From a virus, in IMG/VR virus record IMGVR_UViG_3300017742_000088, positions 1 through 27,638 of that record: a stretch of 27,638 nt of DNA, one strand, 5' to 3'. Shown one piece after another: positions 8,221-18,754 of this stretch. Position 1 is the stretch's first letter; every line of letters begins with the position of its first letter. A model generated the notes under the pieces. That model was given only the letters and a program-made list of their open reading frames with translations. It searched no databases and was not told where the DNA came from. The translations under genes were made by a program, and so were the position numbers.

Positions 8221-8366
8221 TGCCAACGAAACAAGACTGGGCGATCCTCGCCATCTGGACGTCGCTATGCGGGCTGTTGATCGCCTGCACGTTAACCGCT
8301 AATATTTCAGACGAAACAATGCGCCCGAAGGCGCGTCCAACACACTGGGAGACCACGCATGGCTAA
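8220..8366 (+). CDS. Small membrane or lipoprotein-like protein, 48 aa
   Basis: Short gene starting inside the previous stop (TAATG) and overlapping the next start by 8 bases. Residues 7-27 (WAILAIWTSLCGLLIACTLTA) form one membrane segment. LIAC at residues 20-23 fits a lipobox, so it could be a lipoprotein with a 26-residue mature tail containing two prolines, loosely like an outer-membrane spanin subunit. The preceding charge is low (one Lys), which weakens the signal-peptide reading. It may instead be a simple one-pass inner-membrane protein. Confidence 0.6.
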   Translation: MPTKQDWAILAIWTSLCGLLIACTLTANISDETMRPKARPTHWETTHG

Positions 8367-8652
8367 AGCATACTCACGCTCCGACATCCTCGACATGGCG
8401 AGCGAATGTATCACGAAAGATCGCGCCGCGACGCACGGCGACATGGAGGAAAACTTCTCGACGATTGCGGCGTACTGGAGCATCCACCTGGGGGTCGAAA
8501 TAACCGCCGCAGATTGCGCAATCATGTGCGCGCAGATAAAGCTCGCGCGCCTCAAGTCAAATGTCGCCCACGCCGACAACTGGGTGGATCTAGTCGGATA
8601 CGCCGCCTGCGGCGGTGAGCTGGCCGCTGAGCGCCCGGAGGGTTCGACATGA
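8359..8652 (+). CDS. DUF6378-like phage protein, 97 aa
   Basis: Resembles the phage family of unknown function annotated DUF6378. The core DRAATHGDMEENF, then CAIMCAQIKLARL and HADNWVDLVGYAACGG, is the pattern I recognise. The family is all-helical and is usually found in early or accessory gene blocks of tailed phages; its activity is not established. It overlaps its neighbours by 8 and 4 bases. No catalytic triad or membrane segment is visible. Confidence 0.65.
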   Translation: MAKAYSRSDILDMASECITKDRAATHGDMEENFSTIAAYWSIHLGVEITAADCAIMCAQIKLARLKSNVAHADNWVDLVGYAACGGELAAERPEGST

Positions 8653-8861
8653 GCGAAGAGTGGGCAGTCACCCTGCCGAGGCTGGTAGCGTGTCCTGAGT
8701 GCCACGGTGAGGGCACTATAGAGGAGGGGTACGCATACCCTCACAACGCCGGCCGCGACATCGGCGAAATCATCATGGAGACCGTATCGTGTCCAGAGTG
8801 TGGCGGAATGGGAGAGATCCCGCCTTATGAGGAAGAAGAGGAAGAGGAGGAAGACGAATGA
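8649..8861 (+). CDS. Small zinc-finger protein with Glu-rich tail, 70 aa
   Basis: Two CxxCxGxG motifs (CPECHGEG at residues 15-22 and CPECGGMG at 48-55) match the DnaJ-type zinc-binding repeat and probably bind one zinc together. The C-terminus is a run of about ten acidic residues (YEEEEEEEEDE), which could mimic nucleic acid or contact a basic partner. It overlaps both neighbours by 4 bases. Such small zinc proteins are common in phage early operons. No specific function can be assigned. Confidence 0.7.
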   Translation: MSEEWAVTLPRLVACPECHGEGTIEEGYAYPHNAGRDIGEIIMETVSCPECGGMGEIPPYEEEEEEEEDE

Positions 8862-9625
8862 AGTATGACCCGGAGGCGCTCACGCGTCACGTTCTTGACT
8901 GCGCCCAGCAGGGAATGTCTCAGGCGGATGTCGCAGACTTGTTGCGCGTATCCCGCTCAACAATCCACCGCATCTGCACCACTGCAAACATAAAACTTGA
9001 AAGGAAGCCCCGTGAATACGGACCAAACTCAAATCATTATAAGCCGTCTGGAGCGGATCAACAGCATCATGCTGTCGGAGCAGAAGACGGCGATGCGGCC
9101 AAACTTGAAGCAGCGTCTGGAAGAGCAACAGGCATTGCTAGACGCACTAAGGCGCGCGACCAACGTGATGCCGCAGAGCGCCTGAAGGCTAAGCTGGAGG
9201 GCGTCACAGATAAGCACGAGCGGTACGAGATCACATACGCCCACTGCATCTGGGAATATGAGCAAATGCAGTACCGGAACGGCAAACGTGACCCTCTGCC
9301 GTCCGGCCCGCGCAGGCCGCTTACAACCTCGCCGTCCATGCTGGTGGCCGCTGAGAAGATGAAGCAGCACAGCATCGAGCAAGGCAACCGCCTGTTTGCG
9401 CTGATCCCATACGACCAGCGTGTGACGGCCTCACAGGCGGCGGAGTTGCTGGGCGAGAGCGTGCCGCGCACGTCAAGTTACCTCAAGAAGATGTGGGAAG
9501 CGGATAAGATCTACCGCGTGCGCGACCTGGTCGAAGTGGAGGGCTGCACAAAGCGTCAGTGGCGCTGGGTATTTAGTAAGCAGCCAATCAAGGCGTTGAA
9601 TAACTTTTTCGAGGATGATGAGTGA
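8858..9625 (+). CDS. Two-HTH DNA-binding protein, 255 aa
   Basis: Probable DNA-binding regulator. An N-terminal helix-turn-helix (QADVADLLRVSRSTIHRIC, about residues 22-40) resembles resolvase/Hin-type HTHs. A second winged-helix-like segment lies near residues 188-222 (VTASQAAELLGESVPRTSSYL). Between them, residues 50-110 are an odd His/Gly/Ala/Arg-rich linker that looks disordered; a separate ORF with better protein character lies in another frame over exactly this stretch. The gene overlaps the zinc-finger gene by 4 bases and shares its last base with the next start. A frameshift-disrupted pair of genes is the main alternative. Confidence 0.6.
   Translation: MKYDPEALTRHVLDCAQQGMSQADVADLLRVSRSTIHRICTTANIKLERKPREYGPNSNHYKPSGADQQHHAVGAEDGDAAKLEAASGRATGIARRTKARDQRDAAERLKAKLEGVTDKHERYEITYAHCIWEYEQMQYRNGKRDPLPSGPRRPLTTSPSMLVAAEKMKQHSIEQGNRLFALIPYDQRVTASQAAELLGESVPRTSSYLKKMWEADKIYRVRDLVEVEGCTKRQWRWVFSKQPIKALNNFFEDDE
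9012..9185 (+). CDS. Possible nested (overprinted) small helical protein, 57 aa
   Basis: A GTG-start ORF lying wholly inside the two-HTH gene in another frame. AAAGGAAG lies 4-5 bases upstream. The product is strongly amphipathic helix (IIISRLERINSIMLSE, then LKQRLEEQQALLDALRRA) and looks like a small coiled coil, while the host frame over the same bases reads as low-quality linker. Either this is a genuine overlapping gene, or it marks an ancestral separate gene absorbed by read-through. The family is not recognised. Confidence 0.4.
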   Translation: MNTDQTQIIISRLERINSIMLSEQKTAMRPNLKQRLEEQQALLDALRRATNVMPQSA

Positions 9626-10254: not shown

Positions 10255-10881
10255 CTAAGTCAACAGCCAGGTGTGGATTTTGCGCGTCTGGTTAATGCGA
10301 TCATCCAGGCCGTGATAGCCGCCATTCACCCTGCGCGTTATGCGCTTGATAACATCATCGCCAACACCGTCGTCCGCAATGGCAAATAGGCCGTTCTTCT
10401 GGAAGAACCATAAGGCCGTTTCAAACGCATACTCGTCAGCTAGTTTCGACGGATACTCAAGAACCTCCGGCAAATTCATGTCTGACGCAAATGCCTTGAC
10501 GTTTGACTTGCCGGTCAACTGCAAAAAGCCCTTTCCAGAAAACGCAAAGCCGTCGCCACTTGCCTCGTCGCCATTGCCCATGCGGCTGGAGTAGACCTTA
10601 TTTGCCAGTCCCTGCGGGTTCTTAGCATACGGCTCCGCGCTCTCAACTGTTGGGAAGCGCGACGGCCAGACGGCTTGAATGCGCTCAGGGGTTGAGTAGT
10701 ACAGCCCCTCCGTTGTGCGCTTAAAGCCGCCACTCTCGTGATGCGACTGGCCAAGTAAGTGAGCGCAGCGGTCAGGCGACAGGTCGTAATGCTTGGCGAT
10801 TGCTCTGGCCGTATTTGGGCCAAACGCGCCATCGGCTGAAACTCCAATTTTTGCTTGGAGCAACTTCATTGCTTCACTCAT
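10255..10881 (-). CDS. Endolysin: GH19 chitinase-like muramidase, 208 aa
   Basis: Peptidoglycan-degrading lysis enzyme. Residues 5-30 (KLLQAKIGVSADGAFGPNTARAI) resemble a short peptidoglycan-binding repeat. The GH19 catalytic domain follows, with HHESGGF (E49 as probable acid) and TTEGLYY (E58 as the second carboxylate), then FAFSGKGFLQLTGKSNV and ITRRVNGGYHGLDDR, all characteristic of the family. There is no signal peptide, so export to the wall would need the holin candidates upstream in the same operon. It overlaps the preceding small basic gene by 4 bases. The length fits phage GH19 endolysins. Confidence 0.88.
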   Translation of the reverse strand: MSEAMKLLQAKIGVSADGAFGPNTARAIAKHYDLSPDRCAHLLGQSHHESGGFKRTTEGLYYSTPERIQAVWPSRFPTVESAEPYAKNPQGLANKVYSSRMGNGDEASGDGFAFSGKGFLQLTGKSNVKAFASDMNLPEVLEYPSKLADEYAFETALWFFQKNGLFAIADDGVGDDVIKRITRRVNGGYHGLDDRINQTRKIHTWLLT

Positions 10882-13107: not shown

Positions 13108-13229
13108 GGTTGGCTCCAAAAGGTTCCCGGCCATATTAACACGGCGACGGCAGAAAAGAAATATCTCGGCAACACCTTGACCCCTGCCCCCATTCTGTTA
13201 ACACTGCACAAACAAATGGAGGAACCACT
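13108..13229. promoter_or_regulatory. Divergent intergenic region, probable promoters
   Basis: The only gap between the minus lysis operon and the plus replication operon, so it must drive at least one of them unless transcription reads through. Plus strand: TTGACC at 13177-13182 is a good -35, with GTTAAC at 13197-13202 near the expected -10, but no well-spaced -10 hexamer. Minus strand: a TAATAT-like -10 lies about 28 bases before the first gene with no convincing -35. Exact starts cannot be fixed by eye. Confidence 0.45.
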
Positions 13230-13400
13230 GTGAAACATGAGTTAAAACAAATCGGGCCGCGCATCCGCGCCGATATAGCTGAGATGTTGAAAGAGCATTG
13301 CGCCAGCCAGCGCGTCAGCGCGTCGCTGACGATAGAGCGGCTGATCGTCGAGCATCTCAAGAAGGGTGGATATGTTGTCGAAGATTACAATCGGTATTGA
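13230..13400 (+). CDS. Ribbon-helix-helix-like small protein, 56 aa
   Basis: GTG start with a perfect GGAGG 7 bases upstream. The sequence (KQIGPRIRADIAEMLKEHC, then TIERLIVEHLKKGGY) has the strand-helix-helix pattern of Arc/MetJ-type DNA-binding proteins, which act as dimers or tetramers. It is first in the replication operon and could autoregulate the divergent intergenic region beside it. It overlaps the RuvC-like gene by 29 bases. An all-helical unrelated protein is the alternative. Confidence 0.6.
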   Translation: MKHELKQIGPRIRADIAEMLKEHCASQRVSASLTIERLIVEHLKKGGYVVEDYNRY

Positions 13401-15483: not shown

Positions 15484-15490
15484 GCAACAT

Positions 15491-15514
15491 GGCCGCCTGC
15501 CTCGGTGGGCGGCC
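15491..15514 (+). promoter_or_regulatory. Intergenic hairpin before the helicase gene
   Basis: GGCCGCC (15491-15497) and GGCGGCC (15508-15514) form a perfect 7-bp stem with a 10-base loop, 8 bases after the ssb-like stop. The helicase ribosome site (GGTGG) follows outside the stem. No U-run follows, so partial attenuation or mRNA processing is more likely than termination. Confidence 0.65.
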
Positions 15515-15533
15515 AAACTATAGGGTGGAAACT

Positions 15534-17729
15534 ATGAGCGAGAGATACTTCAGCAAAGTCGCGGAGAGCGCAGTGGCCGACGTGGCCGGTGCGATCAAGG
15601 GGAGCCGCAACGAGATTTTAAACAAGGCCGCATTTAGCATCGGCCGCCACGCGCACATGGCGCCGGCAAACCTGGACGCGGCTCTAATGGAGCTGCACAG
15701 CGCGGCCAAGAACATGGGCCTGCAAGACCACGAGATCAAGGCGACAATCGGCAGCGGCTTCAAGCGCGGCGGCGACAGCCCGAAGGAGCTCGAAAACTCC
15801 GACGCGCTGCCGTACACGCCGTCAGAGTTTGAGCGCCTCATGGCGCGCCTGGCCGCCAAGGAAGTGCTGGCGCGGGACGACGAGACCCGCGCGGACAAGA
15901 TGCGCAAGGCGCGCGAGATATGGGAGCGCGGCGTCACAATTTCGCGTGACAACGTCGACGCCGTGCGCCCGGCGCTTCTCTACCTCAACTCGAGGGGTCT
16001 GAGAGCCAGCACAGCCTCGCACTCGGCGCGGTTTAGCCCGAATATATACGACGGCCCCGCAATTATGTTTCCCGCGCTCAGTCCAGAGGGAGAAGTGTGC
16101 GGCGTGCAGAGCGTGCTGCTCACACCCGAGGGCCAGAAGAGAGAGCACAACGGCATCAGCAAATACAGCCGCGGCGTGATCGCCGGAAACGTCATGCGGA
16201 TCGGCAACGAGCACGAGGGCGGCGTCATCATCATGGCCGAGGGGCCAGAGGATGCGCTGAGCGTGTATCAGGCGGTCGGCGACGAGGCGACAGTCGTCTG
16301 CACGTTCGGCAAGGCCGGCATGTCCACATACACCGTGCCGCGTGCGTCCGACGTGACGATCTGCGCCGACCCGGATCTCGACGTTGACGCGGTGGCCGAC
16401 GTGCTGCGCGGCGACGGCAGCACCGACGTGCACGTCGTGCGGTTCGACATGCTGGGCGTCGAGGGTGTGAAGGACGCCAACGACTACATCCGCGAGGCGG
16501 GGGCGCAAAAGCTGCGTGAGGCATTGGCGATGGCCAAGCCGGTCGCGCAGGTGCAGGCCGAGATCGCGCAGTCCGAGCGCAGCTACCCGACGCCATACGA
16601 TCCCGTCGACCCGGCAAGCATACCGGCGCGGCGCTGGATATACGGCCAGCATTACATCCGATCAAACGTGTCTGTGCTGGCGTCAGCCGGGGGCGTGGGC
16701 AAGACGTCCATGCAGATCGTGGAGGCGCTGGCAATTTGCACTGGCCGTCCGCTGCTCGGTGAGCCCGTGCACGAGCCGTGCAACTGCTGGATCATAAATT
16801 TGGAAGATCCGTATGAAGAACTTCAGCGGCGTGTGGCCGCGGCTATGCTGCACTACAACGTCACGGCAGACGAAATCCGGGGCAAGCTGTTCCTCGATGC
16901 GGGCCGCGACATGAACATCATCTTCGCCAGACAGGACCGCGACGGCATCACCGTCGACGACGCGCTGGTCGACTACCTGACGGCCAAGATCACGGAGAAC
17001 AAGATCGGGCTGGTCAGCATCGACCCGTGGGTCGGGGCGACTGGCATTCAGGAGAACGATAACGTCGCAATGAACGCCGCCGTCGGGGCTGTGCGCTCCG
17101 TGTGCGACGAGACGGACTGTGCGGCGTCTCTCGTCCACCACATCCGCAAAGGCAACGGCGAGGAAGCCAGCGTCGACAGCATACGAGGCGCAGGCAGCCT
17201 GCTCGGCGCAGCAAGAGCGGCGCGCGTCATAAACCGCGTGTCGCAGGAGGACGCGCTCAAGCTGGGCGTGTCCGAGACCGAGGCGCTGGGCATATTCCGG
17301 GTGGACGACGGCAAGTCAAACATGGCGCCGCCGGCAGCGAAGGCAGTGTATCGGCGCATGGTCGGCGTGAAGTTGCCAAACGGAGAATACGTCGGGGTCG
17401 CGACCGAGTTCGCAATGCCCGACCTTTTCGACGGGGTGAGCGCCAAGGACGCGATGAAGGTGCAGCGTGACGTCGGGCAGGCAGCCCAGCGCGGAGAGTT
17501 TATGCGCCAGAACCCGCAGGCAAAGCAGTGGGTGGGCAACATCGTGGCGCTGCACCTCGAGCTGGACGTCGATAAGAAGCACGAGAAGGCCAAGGTCAAC
17601 GCAATCGTCAAGAAGTGGATCGAGACAGACGTGCTGCGCATCGAGCGCGAGAAGGATCTGCGCACCGGGCGTGACGTGCCGGTGGTGGTCGTGGGTGAGT
17701 GGATCACGGGCGAGGAGGCAGGCGCTTGA
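15534..17729 (+). CDS. Primase-helicase (Toprim + RecA-like ATPase), 731 aa
   Basis: Probable replicative primase/helicase. Residues 1-220 hold a helical and primase-like region. The Toprim domain follows, with MAEGPEDALS (E236) and CADPDLD (residues 279-283) as metal ligands. The C-terminal half is a RecA/RepA-type ATPase with Walker A ASAGGVGKTS (about 383-392), LEDPYEELQRR, and Walker B IGLVSIDPW (D497). No N-terminal zinc finger was seen, so priming activity is less sure than helicase activity. I chose the ATG with GGTGG upstream; an earlier in-frame ATG at 15489 lies in a hairpin. It is followed by the GTGTGG repeat region. Confidence 0.85.
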   Translation: MSERYFSKVAESAVADVAGAIKGSRNEILNKAAFSIGRHAHMAPANLDAALMELHSAAKNMGLQDHEIKATIGSGFKRGGDSPKELENSDALPYTPSEFERLMARLAAKEVLARDDETRADKMRKAREIWERGVTISRDNVDAVRPALLYLNSRGLRASTASHSARFSPNIYDGPAIMFPALSPEGEVCGVQSVLLTPEGQKREHNGISKYSRGVIAGNVMRIGNEHEGGVIIMAEGPEDALSVYQAVGDEATVVCTFGKAGMSTYTVPRASDVTICADPDLDVDAVADVLRGDGSTDVHVVRFDMLGVEGVKDANDYIREAGAQKLREALAMAKPVAQVQAEIAQSERSYPTPYDPVDPASIPARRWIYGQHYIRSNVSVLASAGGVGKTSMQIVEALAICTGRPLLGEPVHEPCNCWIINLEDPYEELQRRVAAAMLHYNVTADEIRGKLFLDAGRDMNIIFARQDRDGITVDDALVDYLTAKITENKIGLVSIDPWVGATGIQENDNVAMNAAVGAVRSVCDETDCAASLVHHIRKGNGEEASVDSIRGAGSLLGAARAARVINRVSQEDALKLGVSETEALGIFRVDDGKSNMAPPAAKAVYRRMVGVKLPNGEYVGVATEFAMPDLFDGVSAKDAMKVQRDVGQAAQRGEFMRQNPQAKQWVGNIVALHLELDVDKKHEKAKVNAIVKKWIETDVLRIEREKDLRTGRDVPVVVVGEWITGEEAGA

Positions 17730-17977
17730 CCGAATTCGATGACAAGGCGGCCATGGATCTCGAGGACGACGACCTCATCATGGCGGTCTACTGGTCAGAC
17801 ATATTCCGTGCCTGCGCCATCGAGTTTGAGCCTGACTTCATGCAGCCGCGAACCGTCGAGGAGCGGATGCGCGTGCAGGAAGTCATCGTGGCAACTATGC
17901 AATGCCTGGAGCACGCATTGGTGCGGCTCGACGACCAGATGGTGGAGGTGCGCAGTGGTGCAGAGCTGTTGCATTAA
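17726..17977 (+). CDS. Hypothetical acidic protein with TTG start, 83 aa
   Basis: Starts at a TTG that overlaps the helicase stop (TTGA), with GGAGG exactly 7 bases upstream. The N-terminal 20 residues are very acidic (DDKAAMDLEDDDLIM). The rest is helical (VQEVIVATMQCLEHALVRL). No family recognised. Coupling to the helicase gene suggests a replication accessory role, such as a loader or inhibitor, but nothing in the sequence proves it. The repeat region begins 3 bases after its stop. Confidence 0.6.
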   Translation: MTEFDDKAAMDLEDDDLIMAVYWSDIFRACAIEFEPDFMQPRTVEERMRVQEVIVATMQCLEHALVRLDDQMVEVRSGAELLH

Positions 17978-17980
17978 TGC

Positions 17981-18123
17981 CTCCACACCTTACACACATG
18001 GAGTGTGGGGAGGTGTGGAGAGTGTGGTAAATAAGGCCATTTCACCTCCCACACCACCACACGCTATTGTATAGCGTGGTGGTGTGGTGGTGTGGCGTGT
18101 GTGAGATTTTAGGTGTGGTTAAC
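17981..18123. repeat. GTGTGG repeat cluster with nested dyads: candidate replication origin
   Basis: Nine copies of GTGTGG or its complement lie in about 135 bases: plus at 18003, 18013, 18022, 18082, 18090 and 18113; minus at 17983, 18049 and 18057. AGGTGTGG recurs three times. Two large dyads are built from them: a 10-bp stem CTCCACACCT/AGGTGTGGAG (17981-17990, 18011-18020) with an inner 5-bp stem, and a 17-bp stem with a 2-base bulge and TGT loop (18049-18087). A short AT-rich stretch (TAAATAAG) lies between. The cluster sits 250 bases after the primase-helicase gene and ends in GTTAAC. Confidence 0.7.
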
Positions 18124-18148: not shown

Positions 18149-18754
18149 ATGGCAACTAAGGTGAGTGGCAAAGCGAAGCCGAAGTACACGAAGGCGCGGA
18201 AGGATAGGGGGACGTTTGAGACTGGCGTCCAGAGCAAGCCGATCTCACGTCAGGTCGATGGTCAGCTGGCTCCGCTGGATCGTAAGGCGCGGGAGAAGAC
18301 GCTCAAGTGGGGCGACAGTCTGCCGTCTCTCGTGAGCCCGGAGCTCGCTGGACGCTTCGAGGCGGCGTATGACGCGCTGCGGGTTAAGATCGAAGCGGAT
18401 GACGTGGTGGCGGTGCATCAGATCGCGACGCAGCTGATACGCGCCTGGGACGTGCTGGAAGCGGAGGCGGAGGCTAACGGGCGCCAGCCGGTGGGTCGGC
18501 ACGCGTACTGCATCGAGATCGCTTCCGGCAACATCGTGTGCATCGCGCTGCACGACGCGGTCGGCATAAGGCGTGAACATCCAGAGTGGTTGGTGTATGA
18601 TATGGTCGACGCAGCAATCGTGTTGGGGAATAACTTTAGCAGCGAGTTCATCGAGAAGACGCTGGCGCAGTTTCCCGAGGCAAAGGTGACGCGGTGCATC
18701 GGGCCAGCGAACAGCACGTTTGACGCTGAGCTAGGCGACGAGATACCGTTTTGA
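18149..18754 (+). CDS. Unknown protein with SSB-like acidic tip, 201 aa
   Basis: I chose the ATG at 18149 because GGGGAG lies 7 bases upstream; the longer frame runs into the repeat region. The N-terminus is Lys-rich and disordered (KVSGKAKPKYTKARKDRG). The middle is a helical/strand domain (YCIEIASGNIVCIALHDAVG, then WLVYDMVDAAIVLG). The C-terminus reads AELGDEIPF, very close to the D-D-I-P-F tip by which bacterial SSB recruits partners. The fold is not recognised. It may be an ssDNA-binding or replisome-recruited protein. It lies between the candidate origin and TerS. Confidence 0.6.
   Translation: MATKVSGKAKPKYTKARKDRGTFETGVQSKPISRQVDGQLAPLDRKAREKTLKWGDSLPSLVSPELAGRFEAAYDALRVKIEADDVVAVHQIATQLIRAWDVLEAEAEANGRQPVGRHAYCIEIASGNIVCIALHDAVGIRREHPEWLVYDMVDAAIVLGNNFSSEFIEKTLAQFPEAKVTRCIGPANSTFDAELGDEIPF

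Follow-up and report, generated by a model that had tools for sequence, protein, structure and literature searches.

The P4 alpha protein combines a TOPRIM primase, a helicase and a winged-helix origin-binding domain in one polypeptide; its short type-1 repeats lie on both strands, and crr immediately adjoins the 3' end of the alpha gene (PMC4234260). SaPI Rep is a self-loading initiator helicase; the short iterons that its C-terminal domain reads follow its gene immediately (PMC7581432). The locus described here, from an uncultivated marine phage, would operate in the manner of P4 alpha and SaPI Rep without belonging to either; it carries a RepA/DnaB-type helicase. As in P4 alpha, a TOPRIM domain (Toprim_3) resides in the same protein as the helicase and a predicted winged helix, and short repeats on both strands follow the gene. 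However, the helicase matches AAA_25 (RepA-like) and is not of the D5 type, whereas that of P4 alpha is D5_N/Pox_D5, and P4 has its functional ori apart from crr. The P4 alpha tail has no detectable sequence similarity to the primase-helicase tail, for which a winged-helix fold is predicted. SaPI Rep, SaPI5 Rep and SCCmec Cch2 likewise combine downstream iterons with a C-terminal reader, which in our case is indicated by covariation; here a small ORF lies between gene and iterons. Those proteins use DUF927 or D5-type helicases with an AEP primase, while the present protein contains neither type of helicase and joins TOPRIM to a RepA-type one.

Other systems share single traits with this locus. 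The pRN1 protein ORF904 is a primase-helicase with a C-terminal winged helix and a downstream stem-loop origin that keeps its shape while its sequence varies (PMC4234260), but it has an AEP primase and lacks iterons. The helicase described here is related to RSF1010 RepA, with a RepA-like RecA-fold ATPase domain, and the RSF1010 set also comprises an iteron-binding initiator and a primase (PMC4234260). In RSF1010 these functions are distributed over three separate proteins, RepA, RepB' and RepC, whereas here all three are joined in one polypeptide. The iterons of RSF1010 oriV are longer than those at the present site. In the Vibrio PLE RepA_N system the DNA-binding domain and the ori iterons covary and are swapped as a module (PMC8263062), as we observe here, although the initiator is unrelated, the iterons are about 30 bp long and the match holds at the level of domains rather than residues. 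For geminivirus Rep, iteron variation correlates with initiator residues and the origin is a stem-loop (PMC10653810), again resembling our locus, yet this is a rolling-circle Rep of ssDNA viruses and an unrelated protein.

The window, by which we mean the whole stretch of DNA analysed, is an entire 27.6-kb IMG/VR record. Its genes follow the order RuvC, RecE-like exonuclease, SSB-like gene, primase-helicase, repeat site, TerS, TerL and portal (coordinates around the site are collected in Table 1). The primase-helicase matches Toprim_3, DUF7146 and AAA_25 (PF13481, E=1.5e-37) in Pfam, and the PDB relative of its helicase is RSF1010 RepA (1g8y, E=2e-8). Translation probably begins at codon 16, an ATG at 15534 (MSERYF...), because conservation starts at M16. 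In four relatives (L008, L009, L011 and L014) the first 15 residues of the window ORF match ~270 bp further upstream than expected, which suggests an insertion and likewise a true start at codon 16.

Table 1. Features of the repeat site and neighbouring genes; positions refer to the window and residue numbers to the 746-aa ORF at 15489-17729.
Feature	Position	Strand	Remarks
Primase-helicase gene	15489..17729	+	746 aa as listed; TOPRIM primase, AAA_25 (RepA/DnaB-type) helicase, predicted C-terminal winged helix
C-terminal winged-helix domain	17430..17726	+	Residues 648-746; proposed to bind iterons
Codon Q677	17517..17519	+	Predicts first iteron base: Q, G; R, C
Codon D723, wing	17655..17657	+	With 726, separates A from G
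Codon T726, wing turn	17664..17666	+	Predicts fourth iteron base
Small acidic ORF	17726..17977	+	83 codons; separates helicase from iterons; conserved among near relatives
Dyad 1	17981..18020	.	Iterons 17983(-), 18003(+), 18013(+); 10 bp + 5 bp hairpin (17981-17990 with 18011-18020, plus inner 5 bp)
Iteron outside hairpins	18022..18027	+	Changes along with the other copies in relatives
AT-rich patch between dyads	about 18026..18043	.
Dyad 2	18049..18087	.	17-bp palindrome with iteron arms, TGT loop and 2-nt bulge; iterons in this region 18049(-), 18057(-), 18082(+); hairpin retained despite differing cores in relatives
Trailing iterons	18090..18118	+	Copies at 18090 and 18113; the last runs into TTAACA
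Downstream flanking gene	18150..18754	+	About 200 aa; conserved and marks the site; followed by the terminase genes

A sequence-only reading had proposed nine GTGTGG iterons in nested dyads as a candidate origin. All nine copies (GTGTGG/CCACAC) were confirmed within 17983-18118, six on the plus and three on the minus strand, compared with 13 scattered copies in the remaining 27.5 kb of the window. In 200 dinucleotide shuffles of the window the densest 143-bp stretch contained three copies, placing the cluster far above chance, and as ssDNA the segment folds 6.8 s.d. better than shuffled sequences. Both hairpins exist as that reading described them, apart from the 2-nt bulge in the second, which had gone unmentioned, and the AT-rich patch indeed lies between the dyads. 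The copy at 18057 probably belongs to the palindrome core, since CCACCC stands at this place in most relatives. The repeats had also been said to follow the primase-helicase operon at once, which is nearly right, the 83-codon ORF being what separates them from the primase-helicase. A cluster of short repeats beside an AT-rich stretch is the arrangement of an iteron origin. Cumulative GC skew, which had been suggested as a check, has no minimum at the cluster in the window or in two ~37.5 kb relatives; it follows gene direction and is therefore uninformative.

A search based on the helicase initially retrieved 43 loci, and the intergenic region was conserved in all those that include it. The full comparison covers 246 loci, a redundant set with 108 distinct helicases in 28 clusters at 95% identity and several loci sharing contigs, and more than 100 distinct relatives conserve the repeat region. 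Most regions contain 8 to 10 iterons, about three of them reversed. The general form of the iteron is [G/C]TG-N-GG, with all four bases occurring at N, and all copies within one genome change together. Every repeat in L027, paired or unpaired, reads GTGAGG, for example, while its near relative L045 retains GTGTGG, and in L033 the repeat is GTGCGG. Such coherent switching implies that something reads the repeat sequence. It also bears on the sequence-only reading, in which loss of the repeats from relatives was to count against an origin, as the repeats are not lost but switch. The palindrome core occurs as CGCTAT/ATAGCG, CCCTAT/ATAGGG, ACGTATATATACGT, TTGCATATATATATGCAA or CGCCTATATAAGGCG, with the hairpin kept as judged by folding. 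In a complete relative, G021 (37,760 bases with a 99-base terminal repeat), 10 of the 27 GTGTGG copies fall into one 300-bp bin, and this genome has no second iteron cluster. When pairs of genomes with switched iteron types are compared, divergence shows peaks at the iterons and in the last part of the helicase gene, which encodes the predicted winged helix.

A DNA search of 50,697 phage records gave no match, a protein search returned distant helicase-domain matches only, and a scan of genome contigs yielded a single true relative, located in a MAG contig, but did not reveal a host. The origin and initiator proposed here would belong to a large uncultivated marine phage group with no cultured relatives in the collections searched. 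One contig of this phage group (L301, CAKZOI010000056.1) was binned in an Opitutae MAG, reflecting either a host link or a binning artefact. Separately, L329 and L343 represent the same helicase region at both ends of one contig (IMGVR_UViG_3300046167_000283, 40,853 bases), which suggests a circularly permuted assembly with overlap.

Comparison of the helicase tail with the iterons revealed a rule, in which the wing motif [723]-x-R-[726] predicts base N. D..T (70 loci), D..A (18 loci) and S..H (14 loci plus L190, read by eye) occur with T, D or E..Q with A (62 loci), A..Q with G (4 loci), and S..D with C (76 loci). There were no exceptions in 245 loci, the 246th, L042, representing a different replicase lineage. 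Position 726 accounts for 97% of the entropy of the iteron base, compared with 59% for the next helicase column and at most 74% for the best column among SSB, exonuclease, RuvC, the downstream gene, TerS, TerL and the ribbon-helix-helix protein. When whole clusters were left out, position 726 predicted the base with an accuracy of 0.99 and the next column with 0.775; holding out entire 80%-identity clusters lowered the value for 726 to 0.89. Residue 677 predicts the first base in 107/107 distinct helicases (Gln with GTG in 63/63, Arg with CTG in 44/44), with a held-out accuracy of 1.0 and four matched switches. L154 and L172 form a natural pair and share the 29-residue tail WIDTNVLKVEEWPDKR[Q/A]GRDVQ except for a single Gln/Ala difference and have the iterons CTGAGG (Gln) and CTGTGG (Ala).

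Switches were counted on a helicase tree built without the last 90 residues, giving at least 10 changes of the iteron base and at least 9 of residue 726; there is one more base change because the A-to-G switch goes with residue 723. Independent pairs scored as T versus not-T were concordant in 6/6 cases (p=0.03). In a branch-by-branch (Fitch) analysis, 5 of 9 changes at residue 726 fell on iteron-changing branches (p=0.0007), but another column reached 6 of 11; this coincidence measure does not discriminate, given the ambiguity of deep ancestral states and the fact that one base can go with several residues. The rule was found post hoc, after inspecting the data, and one new clade served as the sole blind test. 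It was written down when the L301 tail, which predicts C, and the first 700 downstream bases, containing no iteron cluster, had been seen; the next stretch was retrieved at the same moment as the rule was recorded. As predicted, ten GTGCGG copies lie within 220 bp in each of L301 and its relatives L348, L349, L350 and L351, and all of these loci have Gln at 677 together with GTG only. Because these loci form one clade, they count as one independent success.

By comparison of sequences, coherent switching and its match to residues 723, 726 and 677 are established, and the phage's own primase-helicase almost certainly reads the repeats; as judged by covariation, the site has a dedicated initiator with cognate specificity. 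An AlphaFold2 model of the tail (pLDDT 86.5) comprises three helices followed by a beta hairpin and matches the winged helices of RecQ RQC (Z 7.8), DnaD and MarR at the level of a common fold. Searched by sequence against PDB and Pfam, the tail fell into no family, nor was sequence homology to known origin-binding domains found. In the model, residues 723 and 726 are located in the wing turn and residue 677 in the loop just before the second helix; pairing of Gln with A and of Asp with C would make sensible base contacts. We infer that the tail physically binds the iterons and that this binding starts replication.

Covariation tells which protein reads the sites, not the effect of reading them, and the late-side operon follows closely on the array. 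The iterons might accordingly be an operator, bound by the primase-helicase or one of its cleavage products to control the downstream terminase operon, the origin being elsewhere. We regard this as unlikely, since 9-10 sites, two dyads, an AT patch and a palindrome that preserves its hairpin go far beyond the needs of an operator, the reading protein is a helicase and primase, the complete relative is without another iteron cluster, and no promoter-like site overlaps the array. The primase-helicase may all the same use these sites as an operator. Late-side neighbours also bring packaging to mind, as pac sites are often near terS and the TerS gene here starts ~650 bp downstream of the repeats. 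Recognition of a pac site by the small terminase subunit is nevertheless very improbable: the TerS proteins of L027 (A type) and L045 (T type) are almost the same and share an identical helix-turn-helix, and the best TerS column accounts for 72% of the iteron entropy as against the 97% of position 726. TerS was rejected as the iteron reader, as site specificity does not follow it.

The strong hairpins on both strands could in principle belong to a transcription terminator, the main alternative named in the sequence-only reading, or to a structured RNA. There is little to recommend either, given that neither stem is followed by the T-run of an intrinsic terminator, no Rfam family was matched, unpaired iterons switch their base together with paired ones, and the switch tracks a protein; we consider the probability of this explanation to be minimal. 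Partition and repressor proteins, too, make use of such repeat arrays. That the array serves partition, or is bound by a host-encoded protein or by some other DNA-binding protein of the phage, is however scarcely to be expected. DnaA boxes (TTWTNCACA) are absent from the window, so that it does not have the signature of a DnaA-dependent origin either. The helix-turn-helix (HTH) protein of the phage was rejected as a reader, its identity being only 35% between genomes that share one iteron, while L024 and L027, whose iterons differ, have similar recognition helices in this protein. The ribbon-helix-helix protein was rejected because its strand is invariant while the iteron changes.

An iteron replication origin read by the C-terminal winged helix of the upstream primase-helicase is thus, in our judgement, highly probable. 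The origin reading is supported by covariation of the iterons with the DNA-binding tail of this protein and with nothing else nearby, by the presence of one cluster in the complete relative, and by conserved architecture. In the mechanism that we propose, the origin array would consist of 6-bp iterons [G/C]TG-N-GG on both strands around the AT-rich patch and the palindrome, with wing residues 723 and 726 setting base N and residue 677 the first base. Several primase-helicase subunits would bind the inverted and direct iterons, whereupon the AT patch and/or the palindrome would melt or be extruded. The hexameric RepA/DnaB-type helicase could then be loaded in a self-recruiting manner that needs no separate loader. 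Priming would fall to the fused TOPRIM domain, and a host polymerase would copy the DNA. No polymerase family was found in the ten large ORFs of G021, making the use of a host polymerase likely.

More tentatively, the residue-base rule may represent a compact natural code, in which two iteron bases are set by one or two residues of the wing together with a residue that precedes the second helix. This could allow an origin to be re-keyed in a few steps while the rest of the replisome is kept, possibly providing escape from interference by satellites or nucleases or from incompatibility with co-infecting relatives. The many natural initiator/origin pairs that differ by 1-2 residues and one base make the change of specificity directly testable, and the same rule could let origin compatibility be read from sequence.

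The L042 lineage has the same helicase domain with a different N-terminus and a different tail, and the iteron AGTGACGCA at the same place; its phage HTH protein is 77% identical to that of the window. The joint difference in replicase and iterons indicates a module in which the replicase and its origin are exchanged together. The N-terminus in L042 (4825-7146) and in L309-L345 is without TOPRIM, and an AEP-type primase is possible there.

Several minor observations concern neighbouring genes. An ORF at window positions 10255-10881 (-) is lysozyme/chitinase-like (endolysin) by eye and has no Pfam match at E 0.001. The HTH protein (8858-9625) combines a conserved C-terminus with a very variable middle, its identity ranging from 35 to 97% among otherwise similar phages, and the small ribbon-helix-helix protein upstream of RuvC (about 13200-13390) has an LKQIGPR strand that is nearly invariant in all relatives. 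Some relatives, but not others, carry a free-standing HNH-type endonuclease-like gene beside the origin, between the helicase and the small ORF, where it might have an origin-linked function in homing or interference. It was read directly in L027 (about 8240-8882) and L028 (2224-2835), and its presence in L017, L018, L020, L021, L022 and L036 is suggested by the length of an extra 600-650 bp at the same place.
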